Part shown: in pieces, positions 1-41,906 of the stretch
Position numbering within the stretch: the first letter of the stretch is position 1
Layout: every line of letters begins with the position of its first letter
From: a virus
Direction: 5' to 3' (one strand)
DNA: 41,906 nt
Virus record (IMG/VR): IMGVR_UViG_3300020162_001586
Span: 1-41,906 of that record
Translations under genes and position numbers: made by a program
Notes under the pieces: generated by a model
What the model was told of the DNA's origin: nothing
The model's database searches: none
What the model saw: the letters and a program-made list of their open reading frames with translations, nothing else

Positions 1-25
1 CAGCTGAAGAAGGGGCAACACGCGG
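1..25. repeat. Terminal 25-bp direct repeat (contig overlap), left copy
   Basis: The first 25 bases are identical to the last 25 (41882-41906). Joining the ends over this repeat gives one uninterrupted reading frame (41723 through to 78) and restores the T7 gene order portal-scaffold. This suggests a circularly closed assembly graph rather than physical phage ends, which in T7-like phages lie between the terminase and early genes. Confidence 0.8.
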
Positions 26-9023: not shown

Positions 9024-10052
9024 CTACGTGCAGATTACCGAGCGTAGGCCACCCTTCCAGCACCGAAGCCAGGCATAAATCTCCGGCCGGTGTTCAGGGT
9101 TCACCCTCCAGAGCAGCCCCGCGACGCGCTTCAGGCTGGCCGTGTCCTTGGCGTGGCTGAGATAGGCCATGGCCGTCTCCAGGCTGCAGCCTGTGGCCTT
9201 GCGCTTCAGGCGCTTCAGCGAGCGCTTGCGGATCAGCTTGTAGCTGCGCCAGTGCCGGTAGCCCACCCAGTCCACCCCGTCATCGACCCAACCCACACCA
9301 CTCTTGTTATTGAGCGCCATGCCCAGCTCCTGCACTCTGGCGTCCATCGCCTGGTGGGCGGCGTGGGCCTCGGCTGCCGTCTCGAACAGGGCGATCATGT
9401 CGTCGCAGTAGCGCAGGTAGGTGGTGAGCCCCAGGTCGCGGCGAGCGAAGTGATCGAGGGGGTTGAGCGCCATGTTGGCCATGATCTGGCTGGTGCTTGC
9501 GCCAATCGGAATGCCGCAGTCGCCGCCGTTCACCGTGATGTAGCGCCACAACAACTCCAGGGTGGGCTTGCATTTGATGTGGCGGCACATCTCCAAATAC
9601 AGCGCCTGGTGATTGATGCTGTAGAAGAACTTGCGGATATCCAGGCTGAGGTAATACTTCCATCGCCTGTTGCGCATGTAGCTCTGTAGTTGCTGACTGC
9701 AGCGGTGTGTGCCGCGGCCAATCAGGCAGCTGTAGGTGTGGCCAATCAACCGTTGCTGCAGTGGCATTCGCAGCGCATTACAGACCGAATGCTGGACGAT
9801 TCGATCTTCCAGGAACGGCGCCTGGATCAGCCGGGGCTTGGGGTCCTTGATCCAGAACTCATAGTGCGGCCGCGGTTTGTACCTCCCGCTCAGCAGCCGC
9901 TCCTCAAGGCGTGACAGGTTGACTGCCAGGTTGCTCTCGTACTGGAGGATCAACCGCTTGGTGCCCTTGCCACTGCGCACCTCCCTCCAGGCGTCGAGCA
10001 GGGCGTCGTAATTGGCGATCTGAGGCCAGAGATTGCCGAGTTTGTGGGGCAT
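9024..10052 (-). CDS. DGR reverse transcriptase
   Basis: The 342-residue protein has the usual length of diversity-generating retroelement RTs. In order: FWIKDPKPRLIQAPFLEDR and GRGTHRCSQQL (N-terminal RT motifs), YLSLDIRKFFYSI (motif A, catalytic Asp), IPIGASTSQIMAN (the (I/L/V)GxxxSQ signature that separates DGR RTs from most others), and YLRYCDDMIAL (motif C, catalytic Asp pair; Cys at the variable position). WVGYRHW and a basic thumb region follow. Maturase and endonuclease domains are absent, which argues against a group II intron. It copies the template RNA with errors opposite adenines, and the cDNA replaces the variable repeat. The template repeat lies 133 bp upstream on the same strand. 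Confidence 0.97.
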   Translation of the reverse strand: MPHKLGNLWPQIANYDALLDAWREVRSGKGTKRLILQYESNLAVNLSRLEERLLSGRYKPRPHYEFWIKDPKPRLIQAPFLEDRIVQHSVCNALRMPLQQRLIGHTYSCLIGRGTHRCSQQLQSYMRNRRWKYYLSLDIRKFFYSINHQALYLEMCRHIKCKPTLELLWRYITVNGGDCGIPIGASTSQIMANMALNPLDHFARRDLGLTTYLRYCDDMIALFETAAEAHAAHQAMDARVQELGMALNNKSGVGWVDDGVDWVGYRHWRSYKLIRKRSLKRLKRKATGCSLETAMAYLSHAKDTASLKRVAGLLWRVNPEHRPEIYAWLRCWKGGLRSVICT

Positions 10053-10310
10053 GGTGAGACGGTCGCAGAGCTACTGGAATCACCTTCCCCGGCTATTGAG
10101 AGCCCGAAGACTCAAGGACAGACTCCCTCCCTTCAACACGGCACGGAAGGTTCCCGTGAGAACCAACGCTGGGCGTGATTGTGTCGAAGTCGGACGGCAC
10201 GAGCGCCATTGTTGTTGTTCGCGTTGCCAGAATCGTTGTTGAGATTCACGTTGAACACCCCCGCATTGGCGGTGTTGTTCCAGTTGCCCCCAACAATCGG
10301 CAGCATGTCA
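10053..10310 (-). ncRNA. DGR template RNA region (template repeat plus spacer)
   Basis: This non-coding stretch between avd and the RT gene holds the template repeat (10186-10310) and a 133-nt spacer up to the RT start. In the characterised Bordetella phage DGR, the RNA just downstream of the template is needed for cDNA priming, and the spacer here has a comparable length. On the transcribed strand I see CACGG/CCGTG and a GAGTC-TTCG-GGCTC hairpin with a UUCG loop (10100-10113). The RNA boundaries are inferred. Confidence 0.8.
10186..10310 (-). repeat. DGR template repeat (TR)
   Basis: This aligns without gaps to 10726-10850 at an exact 540-bp offset. There are 23 mismatches in 125 bp and every one is at a T on the plus strand, that is an A in the sense strand of the template. 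23 of its 32 adenines are changed and no G, C or T position differs. In the reading frame of the variable protein it encodes 13 Asn (AAC/AAT) codons, the classic diversifiable codon, and all 13 differ in the variable repeat. The 5' end overlaps the avd stop codon. Confidence 0.98.
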
Positions 10311-10718
10311 GGAGTCCGCCCTGAGTTCAGAGCGTAGCCAGCCTCCCAGGAGCCTGCCCACCTCATCGAGCTTTTCACAGGCAACGCGATGACGCCTGGG
10401 TTCAATGTGCTTGGCCTCCACAGCCAGGTTGAGCAGCTGCCGGAGGAACTCATGCTGCACGTTGAAGCGGGTGAGATCGGTCTTCTTGTGCTGCTTCTTG
10501 TTGGCCGCAATGGCCAACTCCAAGCAGAGGTAGCCGATCTCACGCATCTTGGCGCTGAGGACGTACTTTTCGTACCGCGGCATGTTCCGGGTGAGAACGT
10601 CGAGGTAGAGGCAGAGGTCCTTGCAGCGCCGCTCAATGAGCCAGTAGCGCTCCTGCCTGGCATCCAGTCCTTCTGGAGGAGAAGGGGAGGCTGCCGCCTC
10701 CCCCACATGGCTGCTCAC
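10308..10718 (-). CDS. avd: Avd-like accessory variability determinant
   Basis: The protein (136 residues from GTG 10718) is basic and all-helical, as expected of the pentameric four-helix-bundle Avd that binds the RT and template RNA. Recognisable features are RYWLIERRCKDLCLYL near residue 24, a basic middle (NKKQHKKTDLTRF), LRQLLNLAVEAKHI, and the family-like ending KLDEVGRLLGGWLRSE. The GTG overlaps the TGA of the variable protein gene (GTGA), so translation is probably coupled, and this overlap sits in the loop of the hairpin after the variable repeat. The first 20 residues are Pro/Ser/Ala-rich and contain a second hairpin at DNA level. Confidence 0.93.
   Translation of the reverse strand: MSSHVGEAAASPSPPEGLDARQERYWLIERRCKDLCLYLDVLTRNMPRYEKYVLSAKMREIGYLCLELAIAANKKQHKKTDLTRFNVQHEFLRQLLNLAVEAKHIEPRRHRVACEKLDEVGRLLGGWLRSELRADS
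10684..10703 (-). promoter_or_regulatory. Second perfect hairpin downstream of the variable repeat
   Basis: GGGGAGGC and GCCTCCCC form a perfect 8-bp stem with a 4-nt loop, 22 bp beyond the end of the variable repeat and inside the avd coding sequence. It has no counterpart beside the template repeat. Confidence 0.7.
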
Positions 10719-10725
10719 GCAGCCA
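10708..10725 (-). promoter_or_regulatory. DGR retrohoming hairpin/cruciform next to the variable repeat
   Basis: On the minus strand TGGCTGC-GTGA-GCAGCCA forms a perfect 7-bp GC-rich stem with a 4-nt GNRA-type loop. It starts immediately where homology between the repeats ends (10726). In the Bordetella phage DGR a hairpin/cruciform of this kind just downstream of VR stimulates target recognition. The template repeat lacks it. The loop contains the TGA of the variable protein and the GTG of avd. Confidence 0.85.
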
Positions 10726-12253
10726 GAAGGCGGACGGCACGAGCGCCAATGTAGAGGCTCGCGCCGCCAGAAACGTCGCCGAGAATCACGCCGAACACCC
10801 CCGCAGCGGCGGTGTAGCCCCAGTCGCCCCCAACAAACGGCAGCAGGTCATTCGGGCTTGAGCGATACACGCCGTCACCACCAAAGATGTTGGTGCTGGT
10901 CTGGCTCGCGCTGGTGCCCAGCTCCCGCGGGATCAGGCACTCGGTCATCGCCCGCCGGGTGGCGTTGCTGAAGTTGGCCGAGGGGTGGAAGGTCCCTCCG
11001 CTGTGGGGCACCAGGTAGCTCCAGCCGGCGCTGCCGAACCAGATGCCGTTATCAGCCCCAGCCGCGCTCTCTGCCGCCAGGGACAGCACACCAGCGGCGC
11101 CTGTGATTGAGGCGTTGCCCGTGGTGTTGGTCCACTCAGCGCTGCTCGGGAACAGACGGAAGCCGCTGTTGCCGCCACCGCTGTTGGTCAGACCAGGGGA
11201 GCACTCCCACTGGTTGCCGTTCACGTCCACGATCCCGCTCAGCTGGCCGTTGTGGGTGGTGTGTTCCACCGCCGAGGCCCCGCTGATGCGAGCCGCACCG
11301 GTGAAGGCGCGGTTGCTGCGGCCGGCATAGCCGCTGCCGTTGTGACCGGTCAGGTCGGTGCGGGCGAACTGCAGGCTGGACTTGTTCACGTCCGAGCCGT
11401 AGTTGTTGTTCCCCTTGGGGGCGTAGGGCGCCACGTCCATCCAGGCCGCCTTGGTGGTGGCACCGGCAATCGGAGCACCGCCACCATCGAGCAGGGCCTG
11501 GGCGTGAGCCAGCGACAGGAAGGCGATCTGGCTGCGGATCCACAGCGGGCAGGGAGCAAAGTCCGCACCGCGGGTCTTCACCAGGGCCCACACGCCGCCG
11601 AGGTTGTTGGCAGGGGTGCCGGCAGCGCTGTTCAACGCAGTGCTGTTGCACAGGCTGAAGGGGCTGTTCCAGTCGGTGCCGCCGTCGTCCTTGGTGGTGG
11701 GGCTGACGGGCCAATGCAGCGGGCGGGAGACCGCGATGCCGCCGGTGAGCGGAGTGCCACCGGGGCCATTGGTGTGGTTCGGGGAGCCAGAGCCATCGGG
11801 CTTGCCGTTGGAGATCTGGTACTTGTCCACGAACACGCCCAGCAGGCTGCCGCCGGCGTCAGTGAAGGCCTTGGGCAGCACAGCGTTGCCCGACTGGGTG
11901 TCGCTGATCACGATCTTGGTGCCGTAGGACGGCGCATTCGTGTTGCCAGGTGCTTGCACGTCGATGTAGTGCGCTGGGATGAAGCACACAATCGAAGCGC
12001 TCGGCAGGTGGATGTAGTTGCCGAAGTGCGGGTGCTCCCGCAGCGGGTCATAGGTGCCCGAACTCAGCGGGGCGATGTCTGCTGGCAGGTACTCAATCGG
12101 GCAGCAACCGATGCCAAAGCCAGACATGCCGGCCAGGCCCACGGTATAGCGCCACTGATCGCGGTAGCCATACCACTCGTTCTCGATGTTGAAGATCCCC
12201 GAGGGACCAACAATGCGCTCCTTAACGCGGAGCAGCGGGGTGATGACAGTCAT
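10715..12253 (-). CDS. DGR variable protein, C-type-lectin/FGE-like fold, probable tail adhesin
   Basis: The protein has 512 residues. The C-terminal half looks like the C-type-lectin fold of formylglycine-enzyme-like DGR targets: VDVNGNQWECSPG resembles the NxWEW strand, and the end is GARAVRL, a typical terminus for such domains. The variable repeat encodes about residues 468-510, leaving only two fixed residues. Sixteen of 41 aligned residues differ from the template, all explained by adenine changes. The N-terminal half (with SGFGIGCCPIEYLP) does not match a family I know and may attach to the fibre or tail. It follows the fibre gene cluster on the same strand, so it most likely carries the receptor-binding tip. 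No membrane segment is seen. Confidence 0.94.
   Translation of the reverse strand: MTVITPLLRVKERIVGPSGIFNIENEWYGYRDQWRYTVGLAGMSGFGIGCCPIEYLPADIAPLSSGTYDPLREHPHFGNYIHLPSASIVCFIPAHYIDVQAPGNTNAPSYGTKIVISDTQSGNAVLPKAFTDAGGSLLGVFVDKYQISNGKPDGSGSPNHTNGPGGTPLTGGIAVSRPLHWPVSPTTKDDGGTDWNSPFSLCNSTALNSAAGTPANNLGGVWALVKTRGADFAPCPLWIRSQIAFLSLAHAQALLDGGGAPIAGATTKAAWMDVAPYAPKGNNNYGSDVNKSSLQFARTDLTGHNGSGYAGRSNRAFTGAARISGASAVEHTTHNGQLSGIVDVNGNQWECSPGLTNSGGGNSGFRLFPSSAEWTNTTGNASITGAAGVLSLAAESAAGADNGIWFGSAGWSYLVPHSGGTFHPSANFSNATRRAMTECLIPRELGTSASQTSTNIFGGDGVYRSSPNDLLPFVGGDWGYTAAAGVFGVILGDVSGGASLYIGARAVRLLAA
10726..10850 (-). repeat. DGR variable repeat (VR)
   Basis: This is the 3' end of the variable protein gene and is homologous to the template repeat at 10186-10310. 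The 3' end (sense strand) keeps a GC-rich, unchanged run of 18 bases (GGCGCTCGTGCCGTCCG and its preceding base), the expected initiation-of-mutagenic-homology segment. Changed codons include AAC to GGC, TAC, GCC, ATC, CTC and AGC. Confidence 0.98.
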
Positions 12254-12256
12254 GGA

Positions 12257-12538
12257 TCAGGCCTCGTTGAAGGGGGCGGGGTAGAAGGTCACAGGGCTGG
12301 GCAGGCCGTCTTTGCTGATGGCCGTCACCGGCTGGTCGTCAGCCCAGATGTCGATGTCATCGCCATCGCCGTAGGCGCCGAAGTAATCGAAGCCGTCATG
12401 GGTGTTGGCGTCAGGATCTGCATTCCGTTGCAGGGCCACCAGGGTGAAGGTGGGCTCAACACCGGGTTCTTGCGCAGGCCACTGCACGTTGGTGCCGGGC
12501 TCTGGTTCAGCCTTGAAAAAGCGAAAGTCCATGGTCAT
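12257..12538 (-). CDS. Hypothetical protein upstream of the DGR variable protein
   Basis: The start at ATG 12538 overlaps the preceding stop (TGATG) and gives 93 residues; ATG 12532 is a second possibility. The protein is acidic, with FTLVALQRN in the middle and a DGFDYFGAYGDGDDIDIWADD stretch that could bind metal ions. It ends three bases before the variable protein ATG, so the two are probably co-translated. I do not recognise a family. It may be a chaperone or structural partner of the adhesin, by position only. Confidence 0.7.
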   Translation of the reverse strand: MTMDFRFFKAEPEPGTNVQWPAQEPGVEPTFTLVALQRNADPDANTHDGFDYFGAYGDGDDIDIWADDQPVTAISKDGLPSPVTFYPAPFNEA

Positions 12539-12705
12539 CACATGTGAGAGGCGGAGGTGGGGTCGATCACAGAACGACCGCCATAGCTGCGATCACCTGG
12601 GCGACCGATGGGCAGTGTGTCGGGATCGAATTGCTGCAGTTTCTGCAGGCTGGGTTCGGCTACCGGCGCTGTGGCCGGAAACCCTGTGGACGGAAGTACG
12701 GCCAT
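12538..12705 (-). CDS. Small Pro/Ser-rich protein in the fibre cluster
   Basis: A 55-residue frame starts at ATG 12705 and overlaps the stop of the upstream gene and the start of the downstream gene by one base each (TGATG at both ends). It begins MAVLPSTGFPATAPVAEP and contains FDPDTLPIGRPGDRSYGG. The seamless spacing is the main evidence that it is real. It has no hydrophobic segment or known motif. Confidence 0.6.
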   Translation of the reverse strand: MAVLPSTGFPATAPVAEPSLQKLQQFDPDTLPIGRPGDRSYGGRSVIDPTSASHM

Positions 12706-12973: not shown

Positions 12974-13177
12974 TCAGACCTTCGTGATGCTGGTGACGTT
13001 GTTATTGCCGTCATAGGTCATGGTCAGTGTTGCCACCGCCACGCCGGCTGCGCCGCCTTGTTTGTAAATGACGGTTGTTGGGTTGACGCCCGTGTAGGTC
13101 AGCGAAATGAAATCATGCTCCGGGATGGCAAGACCCGGAATCGCTGGTTCAATCCGTCGCAGTGTTTCAGTGGCCAT
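12974..13177 (-). CDS. Small fibre-associated protein
   Basis: From ATG 13177, which overlaps the fibre stop (TAATG), the frame gives 67 residues. The N-terminus has IPGLAIPEHDFISLTYTG, then VIYKQGG, ending in VATLTMTYDGNNNVTSITKV. Small proteins of this pattern commonly follow tail fibre genes in marine phages and appear as short beta-rich virion proteins, but I cannot name a function. Confidence 0.72.
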   Translation of the reverse strand: MATETLRRIEPAIPGLAIPEHDFISLTYTGVNPTTVIYKQGGAAGVAVATLTMTYDGNNNVTSITKV

Positions 13178-13956
13178 TAGCAAAAGCTCCCAGAAGGAAC
13201 GTGAATTGGGTAGTAATCGCTTTGGGCAATGCCTGTGAAGGCTTTCCCAGGTGAAAGCACTGGCCCAATGCCAAATGGGATTGAACCAGGAGTGCCAACA
13301 CTGAAAGCTGCATTGACCAGTACACCCAGGGGTTCAAGTACCTGGATGGGGCTTTGGGGAACGGCAGCAGCTGTTGCGATTTGAACGGCTGCATTGGCGG
13401 CAGAAGCCGCCGCGTTTGCCGTAGTTGTAACTGCTGTTGCGGCAGCTGTTGCTGCATCTGCTGCAGCAATTGCCGCAGTGGCTTCTGCATCGGCTGAAGC
13501 GGCTGAAGCCGCCGCGGCCGAAGCCGAAGCAGAGGCAGCTGCGGCGCTTGCGCCAATTTGAGTGATAGCAGCATTGCTGACATCCTCTTGCTCCTGCACC
13601 ACGTACAGGTTGTAGAGAGTGGCGTCATTCAGCTGATCTGCAGTCAGCAGGGTGCCCTGGCCAAATGTCGTATAAGGGCCGTCACCTTGAGTGATGCGCC
13701 TCAGGATGACTCCAGCCCCAGCAGCAATGCCGCTGGTCAATACAACTGCAGTTCCTGCTCCATTGAATCCCCACTGGGAGGGCCTTGTCAGCTCAACAAG
13801 CGTTGTTCCATTATCAACAGTGCTATAGACATGGATATGGGAAGGGAGCAGATAGCTGATCGCCTTCCCGCCGCTTGTCGTCAGAGCAAAGGTCGTCGTG
13901 CCTGCAGGCTGACCCGCATAGCTGACCCCGGAGTATGTGAATGTGGGAAGCGCCAT
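13177..13956 (-). CDS. Short tail fibre with T7 gp17-type anchor
   Basis: The protein has 259 residues. Residues 1 to about 130 match the T7 tail-fibre N-terminal domain (YLLPSHIHVYSTVDNGTTLVEL, IAAGAGVILRRITQG, LTADQLNDATLYNLYVVQE), which attaches the fibre to the tail. About 70 residues of almost pure Ala/Ser/Thr follow, probably a trimeric coiled-coil shaft, then a 47-residue C-terminal domain repeated in the gene at 12705-12971. It is much shorter than T7 gp17 (553 residues) and has no large receptor-binding domain, so binding is probably supplied by partners such as the DGR variable protein. That division of labour is inference. Confidence 0.9.
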   Translation of the reverse strand: MALPTFTYSGVSYAGQPAGTTTFALTTSGGKAISYLLPSHIHVYSTVDNGTTLVELTRPSQWGFNGAGTAVVLTSGIAAGAGVILRRITQGDGPYTTFGQGTLLTADQLNDATLYNLYVVQEQEDVSNAAITQIGASAAAASASASAAAASAASADAEATAAIAAADAATAAATAVTTTANAAASAANAAVQIATAAAVPQSPIQVLEPLGVLVNAAFSVGTPGSIPFGIGPVLSPGKAFTGIAQSDYYPIHVPSGSFC

Positions 13957-29970: not shown

Positions 29971-30130
29971 ATGGCAGCGCGAGTTGGGCCAGCGCATAGG
30001 GCCATTCGTATAGAAGCGTGTCTAGTGCTGCATTTGTGCATCATCATCGACCTAAAGCTGATGTACTTGCGCAGTGGCAAGCTTCACCGTCAATAGTTGA
30101 ACTATCGTGCATTGGTGAGTGCACCTTGCA

Positions 30131-30475
30131 ATGCAAAAACTGTCCACCCTGCGGGACGGCCTGCGGCTATGCCGCAAGGTCAGCCCCCAAATGCGGGCCT
30201 CTCAGATTGACCTCCTCCTGACTATCGCCCTATCCCCTGGCAAAACCCAGACAGAGCTGGCCGCTCAGTGTGATCTCACACTTGCGGCCGTCTCTCGTGC
30301 GGTTGATGTCCTCGGCAAAGACGGCAGGCGGGACGGCGTTTCTGGGAAGCTTGGACTAATCGAAACCCGCAGAAACCCTTCTGACGACAGGATTCTGCAA
30401 GTCTTCCTCACGCCAAGTGGCGAACAGTTTGTATCACTTATGGAGTCTCTGGTTTATGGCGGTTCGCTTTCGTAA
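30131..30475 (+). CDS. MarR-like winged-helix regulator
   Basis: ATG 30131 completes the short ACCTTGCAATG leader and gives 114 residues. MRASQIDLLLTIALSPGKTQTELAAQCDLTLAAVSRAVDVL is a typical winged helix-turn-helix, followed by a wing (GLIETRRNPSDDRILQVFLTPSGEQFV) with the DxR pattern of MarR proteins. The dimerisation helices are short, so it is a minimal member. It overlaps the integrase start by 20 bases and is therefore likely coupled to it, suggesting control of integration or of a lysogeny-like state. Confidence 0.85.
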   Translation: MQKLSTLRDGLRLCRKVSPQMRASQIDLLLTIALSPGKTQTELAAQCDLTLAAVSRAVDVLGKDGRRDGVSGKLGLIETRRNPSDDRILQVFLTPSGEQFVSLMESLVYGGSLS

Positions 30476-31469
30476 AGACCGAAACAAATGGTTTGCCACT
30501 ATTGGCGAAGGTTCTGACAGAATCAGTCGCTCATTTGAAACTGAACCTGAAGCTGCTCAATGGGAAGCCGCGGCCAAACTTGGCGTCATCGAAAAACGTC
30601 AAGAGGAGCAACGCATCAAGGAGGCCCAGCCCAAGGGCACCATGGGCCACGTTTTTGTCATCTGCCGCGGCCTGGACTGGGCAGGGAAAGACCCAACACA
30701 GGTGAACAATGCACAGAGGTTGGTCAGGATGTTGGGCCCAACGTGTCTGCCAATTGAGGTAGATGCAGCCGCGATTGATGACCTAGTGGTGACTATGCGT
30801 CAGCTAGGGCTCAACAATGGCACCATCAAAAGGTATCTGAGTGCCCTACGTGTGATGCTCAAGCGTGCTCAGCGCCTGAAGATGATCAGCGTGATGCCTC
30901 TGTTCCCGGAGACTCGCCTGCTCAAGGAGCCCGAGCCCCGTGACCTGGTGCTGCCATCCGAGTGGCTGGCTGAACTGTTGGACGTGATGGAAAGGCGCGA
31001 GCAGCGCCTGTCTGCTGCCGTGACCCTGTTTCTATGGCATATGGGCTGCCGTGTTGGCGAAGCCGTCAAGCTCAACTGGGATCGGGTTGATTTGGCCCGC
31101 AACCGGATCAGTTTTGTCAAGACCAAGGGGAATCTGCCCCGCACGCTCCCGATCCCGAGGGAGGTTCAGCCGATCCTCAAGGCGATGAAGGCAAGGGGCT
31201 CAAAGCAAGTGTTCCCGATCAGCTACGGAGCGTTTTACGACCACTACAGGCGGGCCACCCACGAGGTGTGTGACCGCTTGGGATTGAGCAATGACGTGCG
31301 CAAGGAATGGGTCATCCATACGCTGCGCCATACATGCTTGACGGAGCTGGCTAAAAAGGGCTGGTCCGCTCCCGCTATTTCACAGTGGGCAGGCCACAAA
31401 ACCCTTGCTGTCACCCAGAGGTACGTCCATGGCTCCGCTATCAACCTGGAGGAGCTGATGGAATGTTGA
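30456..31469 (+). CDS. int: Tyrosine recombinase (phage integrase)
   Basis: ATG 30456 (337 residues) is preferred over GTG 30417, whose extra residues are read across the MarR frame. The N-terminal domain starts with an arm-binding-like segment (FRKDRNKWFATIGEG), then a SAM-like core-binding domain. The catalytic set is complete: Arg199 (GCRVGEA), Lys222 (KTKG), His288/Arg291 (HTLRHT), His314 (GHKT) and Tyr323 (QRYVH). Integrases occur in some T7-like cyanophages, where integration has been reported without clear stable lysogeny. A candidate attP follows directly. Confidence 0.95.
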   Translation: MAVRFRKDRNKWFATIGEGSDRISRSFETEPEAAQWEAAAKLGVIEKRQEEQRIKEAQPKGTMGHVFVICRGLDWAGKDPTQVNNAQRLVRMLGPTCLPIEVDAAAIDDLVVTMRQLGLNNGTIKRYLSALRVMLKRAQRLKMISVMPLFPETRLLKEPEPRDLVLPSEWLAELLDVMERREQRLSAAVTLFLWHMGCRVGEAVKLNWDRVDLARNRISFVKTKGNLPRTLPIPREVQPILKAMKARGSKQVFPISYGAFYDHYRRATHEVCDRLGLSNDVRKEWVIHTLRHTCLTELAKKGWSAPAISQWAGHKTLAVTQRYVHGSAINLEELMEC

Positions 31470-31490: not shown

Positions 31491-31695
31491 TTGGTTGCGG
31501 CCAAAGCAACCAAGATCGCAACCAAGCGCTCCAAAACCCAGTGGTGGGCTAGCGAATTGGTGAATACAGAGGAACCGAAATACTCTGTAAGATTGACACC
31601 AGTCAAGAGCCAGGCCACCACTGGGATCCTCACTGAGATCCCTGAGAATGCCCGAAGATCAGTCAAACGCAGTCAAGCAACCAGACTCGCAACCA
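31491..31695. other. Candidate attP with repeated GCAACCA arm sites
   Basis: Heptamer GCAACCA occurs in pairs 12 bp apart on both sides: 31506 and 31518, then 31677 and 31689. The two 19-bp paired blocks agree at 16 of 19 positions. An inverted copy (31491-31498, TTGGTTGC) also faces the first. Between them lies an 89-nt imperfect inverted repeat (31537-31625). The arrangement resembles arm-type sites flanking an integrase core. No tRNA fragment is recognised in it. Confidence 0.5.
31537..31625 (+). other. Long imperfect stem-loop between integrase and RNA polymerase
   Basis: CCCAGTGGTGG (31537-31547) is perfectly inverted at 31615-31625. Inside it, GGCT pairs with AGCC, ATTGGTG with CACCAGT (one G-T), and TACAGAG with CTCTGTA around an 11-nt loop. 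The result is a single extended hairpin of 89 nt with internal loops. It could be an RNase III-type site or the core of attP. Confidence 0.6.
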
Positions 31696-34047
31696 CGTCA
31701 GCAGCAGATCGACCTCGAAAACTGGTGTCGGAACATCGGCGCTGACCGTGCACTTGCGCCTGGTTGGGAGAAAGGAGCAGCCAACTGCCTGGCTGACCGT
31801 GTGGTGGCGATCTACCTCAAGAAAGTGAGGGAGATCTACCGAAAATCTCGGCACTCACCAGGTAGACAGCAGCACATCTGGGATCTGATGCACAGCGAGC
31901 GGGCAGTGGACCACGTCGCTGTTGAAAGCCTGGTGTACGTGCTCAGCCGCATTGACGGGGACATGAGCGCCAACCAGCTCGGCCTCACCCTTGGGAAGCG
32001 GGCTGAGTACGTGTTGTGGCTGACTCACCCCAGCTGGGGCAGGAGCCAGCACCTGCGTGGCTTGAAGCTGGCCAGCAACAACGACTTGGGCATGGGCCTC
32101 ATGCTCAAGCGCTTGCGTGATCAGGGCTTCCGTAAGGCGGCCAGCTATCAGCCGCTCAAGCAGGTGGAGCGTGCTGCGTTGGGCAGGTTCTTCATCGAGT
32201 GCATCGCTGAGAGCACGAAGCTGATCGAGACCTTCATCCAGGTCAGGCAGATGCGCAAGAAGCGGATGGTCCGCCCCACTGCCCTGTACTGGGAGTTCCA
32301 AAGCCGGTGGAAGCAGGCCCTCAAGCTGTTCCGTCCGCTTCGGCTGCCGATGCTGGTGCCACCCAAGCCATGGACTGGGCACAGCGATGGTGGCTACCTC
32401 ACCATGGCCACGAGCGTCTCCACCGTGGACTGGGAGCGGTGGCCAGAGGTCAGCAAGCGGATGCTGCCGTGCGTGTTGGGCAGCATCAACCTGTTGCAGT
32501 CGGTGCCACACGTGTTGGACCACCAGCAGATGGCGGTGGCCCAAGCCCTTTGGAATCTGGGGCACCCAGTTGGGGGCCTGCCAAAGCGGGAGCGATTGGA
32601 GGAGCCCGTTGACCAGTGGTACAAGGAGCAGGGGCTGGGCCCCAGCGCCTACTGGAAAGCGGTGTGGCAGTGGAAGTCAGACCAACGCAAGGATCCAGCC
32701 CGATCCAGCTTCATCCATGCAGCTATTGCATACGAGAAGCTCAAAGGTGCAGAAGTGCTGCACTGGGTTTGGTCGATGGACCACCGCGGCAGGCTGTACG
32801 CCAAGGGAGCGCAGCTCAACCCGCAGAACGGTGACCACTTCCGCTCCATGGTCCAGTTCCAGGAGCAGAGCCCGATCAAGGGGCACGAGAAGCAGTTTGC
32901 TTGGTCCATCGGTGACGCCTATGGCATCCAGCAGGACTGGGCCAAGCGGCAGGAGTATCTGTCCCGGCTGAGCGTGGTGATCGGGCGCTGTGGCGAGGAC
33001 CCACTGGGGAACCTGGCCTACATCCAGTCAGCCAAGGAGCCGTTCAGGTTCTTGCAGCTCTGTCGGGATTGGCATGGCTATCTCAATGACCCTGGCTACA
33101 CCAGCGGGACGATCCACTGGTTGGACCAGACCTGCTCTGGCTGGGGGCACGTCGCTTGCCTGACGGGTGATGCAGTCCTTGCCCAGTACACCAACGTGAC
33201 CGGCCACGCTCCAGCTGACCTGTACATGGGGCTGGGACGGCTGGTTGAAAGCCGGATCAAGTGGCTGGCTGAGCAGGACGAGACCGATCCGAAGGTCACT
33301 CAGTGCTTGGTCTGGTGGCGTGAGCACGAGATCCCCCGGTCTCTGTGGAAGAAGGTGCTGATGCCCGTGATCTATGGCCGCAGCTACCAGTCGCTGGCGG
33401 AAACGATCAGCTTCTATCTGCGGGATGAGATCTCTGACTTCCTCAACGAGCAAGGCATCCGGGTTCTGGATTTGGCCAGGGTGCTGGCCAGCACGACCAA
33501 CAACGTGTTGAAGGAGGCTCTGCCCAACGTCCGTGACCTGAGCCGCTGGCTGGCGAAGCTGTCGTCCATGCAGATCGACGCTGGCCTGCGGCCCTACTGG
33601 TTCACGCCCAACGGGCTGGCCGTCGAGTGCTATTCGACCGACACGATGTACGACCGTATCGAGTTGAATCTTGCTGGTCGCAAGATCGCGATCAGCTTGC
33701 GTGAAGCCAAGGCTCAGCTGCCCAACAAGGCGAAGACAGCGAAGAAGCTTGTGCCTGACTACATTCACAGCCACGATGCCGCCTTTTTGCAGCGCTTCGT
33801 CAGCCATTGGGGCAGCTACAAGCACCCGATCAGTTGCGTGCATGACTGCTTCGGCACAACGCTGGAGCACGGAAGCACGATGCGCAAGGAACTCAACGAT
33901 CAGTGGCATCGCTTCTACTCAGTGGACTACCTGACGCGTCATCAGGGGATGGTGCAGGCGCTGCTGGGCAAGGAGGTGCCGGCGCCACCAATCGTCGGGA
34001 CCCTTGACCGGAACAAGGTCGGCGAAAATCCCCACCTTTTCTCTTGA
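31648..34047 (+). CDS. T7-type single-subunit RNA polymerase
   Basis: The protein has 799 residues (T7: 883). Active-site elements align with T7: Asp493 in WLDQTCSGWGH (T7 Asp537), Lys568 and Tyr576 in WKKVLMPVIYGRSY (T7 Lys631, Tyr639), and Asp733 in VHDCFGTTL (T7 Asp812). It transcribes middle and late phage genes from phage promoters. The sequence is divergent, and I could not derive its promoter consensus. The ATG at 31648 has only a weak ribosome binding site and its first codons overlap the right arm of the candidate attP; a later start (before DLENW) is possible. Integration at that attP would separate it from the upstream early genes. Confidence 0.97.
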   Translation: MPEDQSNAVKQPDSQPRQQQIDLENWCRNIGADRALAPGWEKGAANCLADRVVAIYLKKVREIYRKSRHSPGRQQHIWDLMHSERAVDHVAVESLVYVLSRIDGDMSANQLGLTLGKRAEYVLWLTHPSWGRSQHLRGLKLASNNDLGMGLMLKRLRDQGFRKAASYQPLKQVERAALGRFFIECIAESTKLIETFIQVRQMRKKRMVRPTALYWEFQSRWKQALKLFRPLRLPMLVPPKPWTGHSDGGYLTMATSVSTVDWERWPEVSKRMLPCVLGSINLLQSVPHVLDHQQMAVAQALWNLGHPVGGLPKRERLEEPVDQWYKEQGLGPSAYWKAVWQWKSDQRKDPARSSFIHAAIAYEKLKGAEVLHWVWSMDHRGRLYAKGAQLNPQNGDHFRSMVQFQEQSPIKGHEKQFAWSIGDAYGIQQDWAKRQEYLSRLSVVIGRCGEDPLGNLAYIQSAKEPFRFLQLCRDWHGYLNDPGYTSGTIHWLDQTCSGWGHVACLTGDAVLAQYTNVTGHAPADLYMGLGRLVESRIKWLAEQDETDPKVTQCLVWWREHEIPRSLWKKVLMPVIYGRSYQSLAETISFYLRDEISDFLNEQGIRVLDLARVLASTTNNVLKEALPNVRDLSRWLAKLSSMQIDAGLRPYWFTPNGLAVECYSTDTMYDRIELNLAGRKIAISLREAKAQLPNKAKTAKKLVPDYIHSHDAAFLQRFVSHWGSYKHPISCVHDCFGTTLEHGSTMRKELNDQWHRFYSVDYLTRHQGMVQALLGKEVPAPPIVGTLDRNKVGENPHLFS

Positions 34048-34167: not shown

Positions 34168-34764
34168 GTGCCCAAACACCTTTCCAACGTCGGACGTTTC
34201 GCCTTTGGCGCACTTCTCGAGCCACGCCCCAACTCATTCGGTGCAATGGAGTGGGCACTTGGCTTCGTCATTTCCGAAGACGCAGCCATGCCCATGTTTG
34301 ACGTGATCGAGTCAGCCCTGCAGCAGAAGCGTGCGGAGCAGCCCCGTTTCCCCAAGACCAATGACGGTCTGCGGATGCCTTTCCGCGTCAGCGAGAAGAA
34401 GATGGAGGACGGCACCAAGGAGGTTGTCCCCGGCGAGTACCTGTTCAAGTTCAGCCGCAAGCTGGAACGCAAGATGAAGACAGGGGAGACCTCGCGCAAC
34501 ACCCCGCCCGCCATCTACGACAGCCTTGGCCGTGTCATCAACGGCAAGATCAACCGCATTGGTGGTGGCACGACAGGCAAGGTCATCTACGACGTGTTCG
34601 TGTACGACAGCCCCGCAGCCAAGGGCGTGGCCTTCCAGCTTGTTGGCTTCCAGATCGCCGAGCTGAAGACCTCAGAGCTGGAGCTGCCTCCAATTGAGGG
34701 TGGCTTCGTCGCTGAGCAAACAGAGGACGACGACATCGCTGCAGTTCTGGCGGGCAATGCTTGA
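34168..34764 (+). CDS. Single-stranded DNA-binding protein (gp2.5-like)
   Basis: The 198-residue product starts at GTG 34168. The middle is beta-rich with basic and aromatic residues (YLFKFSRKLERKMKTGE; PPAIYDSLGRVINGKINRIGGG; GVAFQLVGFQIAEL), consistent with an OB fold. The tail is acidic (EQTEDDDIAAVLAGNA), as in T7 gp2.5, where it contacts other replication proteins. Gene order (before endonuclease I and primase-helicase) agrees. It overlaps the next gene by 8 bases. Confidence 0.85.
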   Translation: MPKHLSNVGRFAFGALLEPRPNSFGAMEWALGFVISEDAAMPMFDVIESALQQKRAEQPRFPKTNDGLRMPFRVSEKKMEDGTKEVVPGEYLFKFSRKLERKMKTGETSRNTPPAIYDSLGRVINGKINRIGGGTTGKVIYDVFVYDSPAAKGVAFQLVGFQIAELKTSELELPPIEGGFVAEQTEDDDIAAVLAGNA

Positions 34765-35296
34765 TCGGTACAACCGGCGCATCCGCAGCCAGAAAGACCG
34801 AGAGCATCGCTCGAACCTAGAGACACAGGTGGAACAGGCCCTGCTTGAGCAGGGCTACGCCCCTGAGTACGAGACCGAGAAGTTCGGTTACGTCCTGCAT
34901 CGGAAGTACACCCCTGACTTCAAGGTGGGGAACATCTATGTGGAGGTCAAGGGTTGGTGGCCATCGCCAGAGCGGACCAAGTTCTTGGCGGTGATCATGA
35001 ACAACCCTGGGCTGCCTATCTTTGTTGCGCTTCAGCGTCCACAGCTGACGTTGAGCAAGCAAAGCAAGACCACATACGCACAGTGGTGCACCCGGCATGG
35101 CATTGCTTGGTGTCCAATCCCAATCCCACCTGACTTCATGAAGCAATGGATGGAAGGAGCCAGACCCACATTCCATGCCCCGGCCCGGAATGCGAAAGCA
35201 CAGACGGAGCGACCATCTACCCAGACGGTTCTGTTTACTGCTTCGTCTGCGAACAGCGGTACACCGAATCAGGAGAACCTTGGAAACAGCGCATGA
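34757..35296 (+). CDS. Endonuclease I, Holliday-junction resolvase (T7 gp3-like)
   Basis: ATG 34757 gives 179 residues; T7 gp3 has 149. The catalytic pattern is seen: Glu near residue 20 (TQVEQALLEQ), Asp in RKYTPDFKV and Glu-x-Lys in VEVKGWW. It resolves branched DNA and helps degrade host DNA. The conserved core ends near residue 135 (PPDFMKQWMEG); the last 45 residues are read through the zinc-finger coding part of the primase gene in another frame, so this tail may have arisen by overprinting. Confidence 0.9.
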   Translation: MLDRYNRRIRSQKDREHRSNLETQVEQALLEQGYAPEYETEKFGYVLHRKYTPDFKVGNIYVEVKGWWPSPERTKFLAVIMNNPGLPIFVALQRPQLTLSKQSKTTYAQWCTRHGIAWCPIPIPPDFMKQWMEGARPTFHAPARNAKAQTERPSTQTVLFTASSANSGTPNQENLGNSA

Positions 35297-41868: not shown

Positions 41869-41906
41869 TCCAGCAGCACCACAGCTGAAGAAGGGGCAAC
41901 ACGCGG
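41723..41906 (+). CDS. N-terminal part of the junction-spanning small protein
   Basis: ATG 41723 starts in the +1 frame inside the portal's 3' end, runs past the portal stop and off the window. It continues in frame at position 1 (after removing the 25-bp overlap) to TGA 76-78. The first 53 residues (MLHNNSHKERSRVEQRRRRN, then Gln-rich) are read over the portal's Gln/Ala tail, so composition alone gives little support. The actual start could be further downstream, for example GTG 41759. Confidence 0.45.
   Translation, partial: MLHNNSHKERSRVEQRRRRNPAEQQLAEVIKEQQLHSQPAESQQPEQSDPAAPQLKKGQHA
41882..41906. repeat. Terminal 25-bp direct repeat (contig overlap), right copy
   Basis: Identical to positions 1-25; see that entry. 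With one copy removed the closed genome would be 41,881 bp. Confidence 0.8.

Follow-up and report, generated by a model that had tools for sequence, protein, structure and literature searches.

The window, by which we mean the whole stretch of 41,906 nt formed by the IMG/VR virus record IMGVR_UViG_3300020162_001586, carries between positions 9,024 and 12,253 a variable target gene, an avd gene, a template repeat (TR) and a reverse transcriptase (RT) gene. All four lie on the minus strand in the canonical order that a preliminary description of this DNA had reported. The RT (9024..10052, minus strand, 342 aa) contains the YCDD catalytic motif and a GIPIGASTSQ motif, and it matches RVT_1 (1.6e-17) and phrog_1423 (1.1e-95). 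Group II, Drt and retron models of NCBIfam match the protein as well, all of them far below their cut-offs, and the reading to which these scores could point, a group II intron, retron or defence RT beside an unrelated repeat, is barely credible. Among solved structures the best match is the RT of 8ub7 with 168 bits, which leads the next one, a group II type RT with 62 bits, by 106 bits; the IGxxxSQ motif is present, and both the avd gene and the TR adjoin the RT. In the phylogeny that had been suggested as a check, the window RT and 14 viral relatives group with seven known RTs of diversity-generating retroelements (DGRs) and apart from three group II RTs (support 100/99), although the tree does not fix their place within the DGR RTs. 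Another RT class was rejected on the sub-cut-off NCBIfam scores, the 8ub7 match and the tree, while phrog_1423, the 8ub7 match, the tree and the IGASTSQ and YCDD motifs agree on an RT of the DGR type.

The Avd accessory protein (10308..10718, minus strand, 136 aa) has a GTG start that overlaps the target stop codon. It matches PF22296 (bAvd, 9.3e-23) and NF033474, exceeding the curated cut-offs of both as would be expected for a DGR of the Avd type, and also phrog_3206 (1e-26). The TR (10310-10186, minus strand, 125 bp) starts at the avd stop codon, with the RT 133 bp further on, and the variable repeat (VR; 10850-10726, minus strand, 125 bp) forms the 3' end of the target gene; a repeat search found no third copy in the whole record. 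TR and VR align over 125 bp without gaps, with 82% identity and 23 differences, every one of which faces a template adenine: 23 of the 32 TR adenines are changed in the VR, but none of the 93 other bases (G replaces A at 12 sites, T at 7 and C at 4). Our recount reproduced the coordinates and all of these counts as first described. For differences scattered randomly among all bases, such a confinement to adenines would have a hypergeometric P of 3.7e-18, and this one-sided pattern rules out a chance repeat as the source of the pair. None of the 13 Asn codons (AAY) of the template is preserved in the VR, as had been claimed, and the target frame has gained no new stop.

The preliminary description had taken all 23 adenine changes as mutagenic. 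Their positions hold, but the number is nearer to 21-22. TR A121 (window 10190) faces a C in the VR (10730) in every TR/VR pair that was read, including those of relatives whose RT identity is as low as 54-56%, and since this is a fixed difference between TR and VR it should not be counted as mutagenesis. Likewise, A5 of the TR is a C in the VR of most close relatives whose TR/VR pairs were compared. A121 and A5 are thus probably fixed boundary differences. The stretch at 10730..10747 (minus strand) is a probable IMH: it is adenine-free, common to TR positions 10191-10207, and includes the fixed C 10730 opposite A121 (10190), so that the VR 3' end has the fixed TR/VR difference typical of an IMH in sequence. 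A121 would then probably be the IMH/IMH* mark that gives homing its direction.

Two hairpins follow the VR on the minus strand. Hairpin 1 (10708..10725) lies directly after it and has a 7-bp stem and a GTGA loop containing the target stop codon; hairpin 2 (10684..10703), 22 nt after the VR, has an 8-bp G+C-rich stem and a GGCA loop. Across nine distinct sequences 15 of 15 pairs are kept in the two hairpins, and five pairs, three in hairpin 2 and two in hairpin 1, show compensated changes on both sides. The loop of hairpin 2 reads GGCA, GACA or GAGA among the relatives, which all fit GRNA, the published consensus for the hairpins of phage DGRs, located 4-34 bp from the VR (PMC3240598). With its G+C-rich stem and GRNA loop behind the VR, hairpin 2 is a probable homing hairpin or cruciform. 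Enzymes of the T7 endonuclease I class cut the cruciform of the BPP-1 DGR in vitro. A homologue of this enzyme (PF05367) is encoded in the window at 34694-35296 and is also present in Krakvirus S39C11. That the phage might cut its homing hairpin with this endonuclease of its own is kept only as a thought, because the homologue is absent from the other DGR-bearing T7-like contigs that were checked.

As the preliminary description had proposed, related phages were searched for the same cassette, and a scan of IMG/VR yielded 21 RT relatives with 76-94% identity, at least one pair of which represents one phage in two samples; a separate adhesin scan added further relatives. In about 17 TR/VR pairs among the relatives the differences lie almost only at adenines. 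Over 12 aligned TR/VR loci, 264 of 406 template-A sites differ compared to 23 of 1094 other sites, several of which sit at the repeat edge. In three relatives with target bodies of 96-98% identity (L004, L006 and L019) the VRs differ at 21-24 of 33 A sites, compared to 1-4 of about 91 others. The preliminary description had named variation away from adenines in the VRs of relatives as the finding that would refute its reading; the variation observed is almost entirely limited to adenines, so that the reading withstands this test. One locus (L092:5544-6225) is of interest in its own right: about 10 of the sites at which its VR departs from the TR of the same locus are not adenines, and it looks like a recombinant whose VR is still to be rewritten by the present TR.

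The mismatch between the non-A bases of this VR and its own TR demonstrates that recombination does occur, and module exchange between phages is seen as well. The VR differences of the window could accordingly be ascribed to recombination with the adhesins of other phages instead of retrohoming. Such recombination would bring in differences at all bases, but in the window the non-A sites are unchanged (0 of 93) and the AAY codons are changed without exception (13 of 13). As the main cause it is refuted by the one-sided pattern in many TR/VR pairs, and we consider it very improbable for this VR.

It had further been claimed that the element is active or was so recently. This is sustained for the recent past of the family by the adenine-limited turnover of the VRs, but not as evidence on this very genome: since the VRs of close relatives differ at adenines beside conserved gene bodies, the sequences support a DGR family that worked recently, and they do so through the relatives rather than through the window. 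A cassette that is intact in sequence yet inactive, with the VR as the frozen product of past homing, is unlikely. Frozen states do occur, as illustrated by relatives in which the VR persists although the cassette has decayed, but RT, Avd, TR, IMH and hairpins of the window are all intact, and VR change at A sites is very fast in the close relatives.

The DGR target (10715..12253, minus strand, 512 aa; phrog_2889) is probably a receptor-binding protein. A Pfam scan of the target found no domain, and two structure predictions reached a mean pLDDT of 30 and 37, too low for use. Profiles were more informative. A profile of the C-terminal 243 aa, built from 32 relatives, matches 5vf4 with an E-value of 1.3e-5 over a region that spans the VR; 5vf4 is the DGR variable protein of Thermus aquaticus, which has a lectin fold (PMC6328139). 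In addition, a target profile from 11 full-length relatives matches the DGR target of Pseudomonas phage Bise (hhalign 97.6%). These sequence profiles point to a possible lectin-type fold at the target C-terminus. A short T7-type tail-fibre protein is encoded close by (13177..13956, minus strand; phrog_2710 tail fiber, 6e-16) and is likely the partner by which the target is attached. Together with this adjacent tail-fibre gene, the similarity to a DGR variable protein makes the proposed function as a hypervariable adhesin likely. A 94-aa gene (12257..12541, minus strand) lies upstream of the target in most relatives and travels with it.

RT motifs and tree, Avd, TR and VR, IMH, hairpin and target homology together bear out the initial identification as a DGR. 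Judged from its sequence, we put the probability that the window holds a complete and probably functional Avd-containing DGR of the BPP-1 type, in a T7-like and integrase-bearing phage, at about 95%. In such an element the TR RNA would be copied by the RT together with Avd, whereby random bases are inserted opposite template adenines. The cDNA would be primed at the IMH of the VR with the aid of the hairpin behind it, and would then replace the VR, while the TR and the protein scaffold stay unchanged. The expected outcome is a diversified lectin-type tip of a tail-associated binding protein.

The closest parallel in organization is the DGR of Bordetella phage BPP-1 (mtd, VR, avd, TR, brt), which shares with the window the gene order, the Avd protein, the position of the TR directly at the avd end, the adenine rule, the GRNA hairpin after the VR (PMC3240598) and the variable C-terminus of a tail-associated protein. 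The RTs of both are about 36% identical over 63% of their length. In contrast, Mtd and the window target are unrelated except for a weak direct similarity that is confined to the VR end. Unlike BPP-1, the window adds the 7-bp hairpin abutting the VR, and its phage has a T7-like backbone with its own RNA polymerase. The variable protein of the Thermus aquaticus DGR (5VF4, PMC6328139) shares the C-terminal domain including the VR and offers a solved structure, but its likeness to the window target is remote. Bise, whose RT (34%) is related to that of the window as is the target C-terminal domain, differs in being a Mu-like phage with contractile tail and transposase.

Assignment of the phage to the T7-like podoviruses, as originally made, is upheld. 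Besides a single-subunit RNA polymerase (31648..34047, plus strand; PF00940 7e-36, phrog_414), the window encodes SSB, endonuclease I, primase/helicase, exonuclease, portal, scaffold, capsid, tail tubular A and B and terminase, so that a phage-encoded RNAP is combined with T7-type tail tubular proteins, portal, terminase and the genes of a short-tailed virion. The genome is collinear with Krakvirus S39C11 (AP013549, Autographiviridae) in integrase, RNAP, SSB, endonuclease, primase, exonuclease, portal, capsid, tail tubular A and B and terminase. Family A DNA polymerase (PF00476), a usual T7-like trait that we did not use for membership, has no match in the window and is missing too from Krakvirus S39C11 and from related contigs, some of which are fragments. 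The record ends share an exact overlap of 25 bp (window 1-25 and 41882-41906), and a relative with up to 99% protein identity to the window (L024) runs across the end junction. Both observations make a closed genome of about 41.88 kb probable, with record ends that probably mark where the assembly opened a closed map.

The label of a lytic-type phage, on the other hand, is unsupported, because the window encodes a tyrosine integrase (30417..31469, plus strand, 350 aa; phrog_1 2.8e-43) with the catalytic R, HxxR, GH and Y residues, so that the phage does not qualify as strictly lytic. The integrase stands beside the T7-like RNAP and directly downstream of a gene for a MarR-like regulator (30119-30475), an arrangement also found in Krakvirus S39C11, where the regulator is annotated as well. 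Nearly all of the DGR-bearing T7-like relatives that were checked likewise have an integrase match. An integrase need not mean stable lysogeny, however: T7-like cyanophages that carry one integrate but do not establish stable lysogens (PMC8776855). Inspection by eye of the non-coding DNA flanking the integrase revealed no definite att site. As to the bacterial host, the window has no tRNA genes, and scans of 84,980 genomes with the RT and the adhesin returned no relative.

The DGR machinery of the window is of a known kind; what is new is its exchange between backbones and its repeated loss with the adhesin kept. Compared to four relatives (G003, G004, G005 and G009), Avd is 90-97% and the RT 86-88% identical, but the backbone proteins only 40-42% (TerL), 29-32% (tail tubular B) and 25-26% (RNAP). 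One relative with the backbone type of the window (L018; tail tubular B 60%) has RT DNA that is 98% identical to that of a phage with the other backbone (L003), and the RT tree unites the two at 100/99. The cassette is also found, with an RT identity of 77%, in a phage of 69 kb that encodes a lambda-O-like replication protein but no T7 RNAP (G012). That DGRs pass from one genome to another, unrelated one is known in general (PMC8144416), and the window family, as the sequence comparison supports, would be a sharp case. The same study surveyed over 30,000 DGRs worldwide and might already include such contigs; a literature search limited to open-licence papers found no published DGR in Autographiviridae.

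In many adhesin relatives the RT is missing from the whole record, some of these records being short fragments. A 1.4-kb deletion in one relative (L089:2091-3913) fuses avd codons 1-40 in frame to the last residues of the RT; TR and RT active site were removed, whereas adhesin, VR and hairpins are retained. Stubs of avd are left in L091, L099 and L105, and a T7-like phage of 42.4 kb (L117) has lost everything between the hairpins and the RT end. Both hairpins are present without a DGR in L107/L108, and the DGR is likewise absent from the adhesin relatives L097, L109/L111 and L113. Because L107/L108 and L109/L111 each recur in separate records, an assembly error is unlikely for them; for loss cases known from single records misassembly is possible. 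For relatives free of remnants, never having had a DGR is as possible as its loss. Altogether, the sequences support that the cassette was lost repeatedly while the adhesin stayed.

Tentatively, adhesin and DGR could act as a single tropism module that is exchanged among unrelated phages, here two T7-like backbones and the 69-kb non-T7 phage. Once a useful variant had been found, the DGR would be deleted again and again, leaving behind the adhesin in its fixed form and, in many cases, the homing hairpins, so that phages diversify and then lock in. We consider this model possible but doubtful as a whole: exchange and losses are supported, and selection for locking in is the part that we infer. 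The family places DGRs firmly in T7-like phages that encode an RNA polymerase of their own and an integrase. It also provides a comparative set around one adhesin, with active DGR, decayed remnants or none among close phages, which could show under what conditions targeted hypervariation is worth keeping and under what conditions it is given up. Krakvirus S39C11 differs from the window in being without an RT, and the place taken in the window by the DGR and the adhesin, between the plus-strand tail genes and the minus-strand virion genes, is occupied there by a 5.7-kb gene for a 'putative lectin'.
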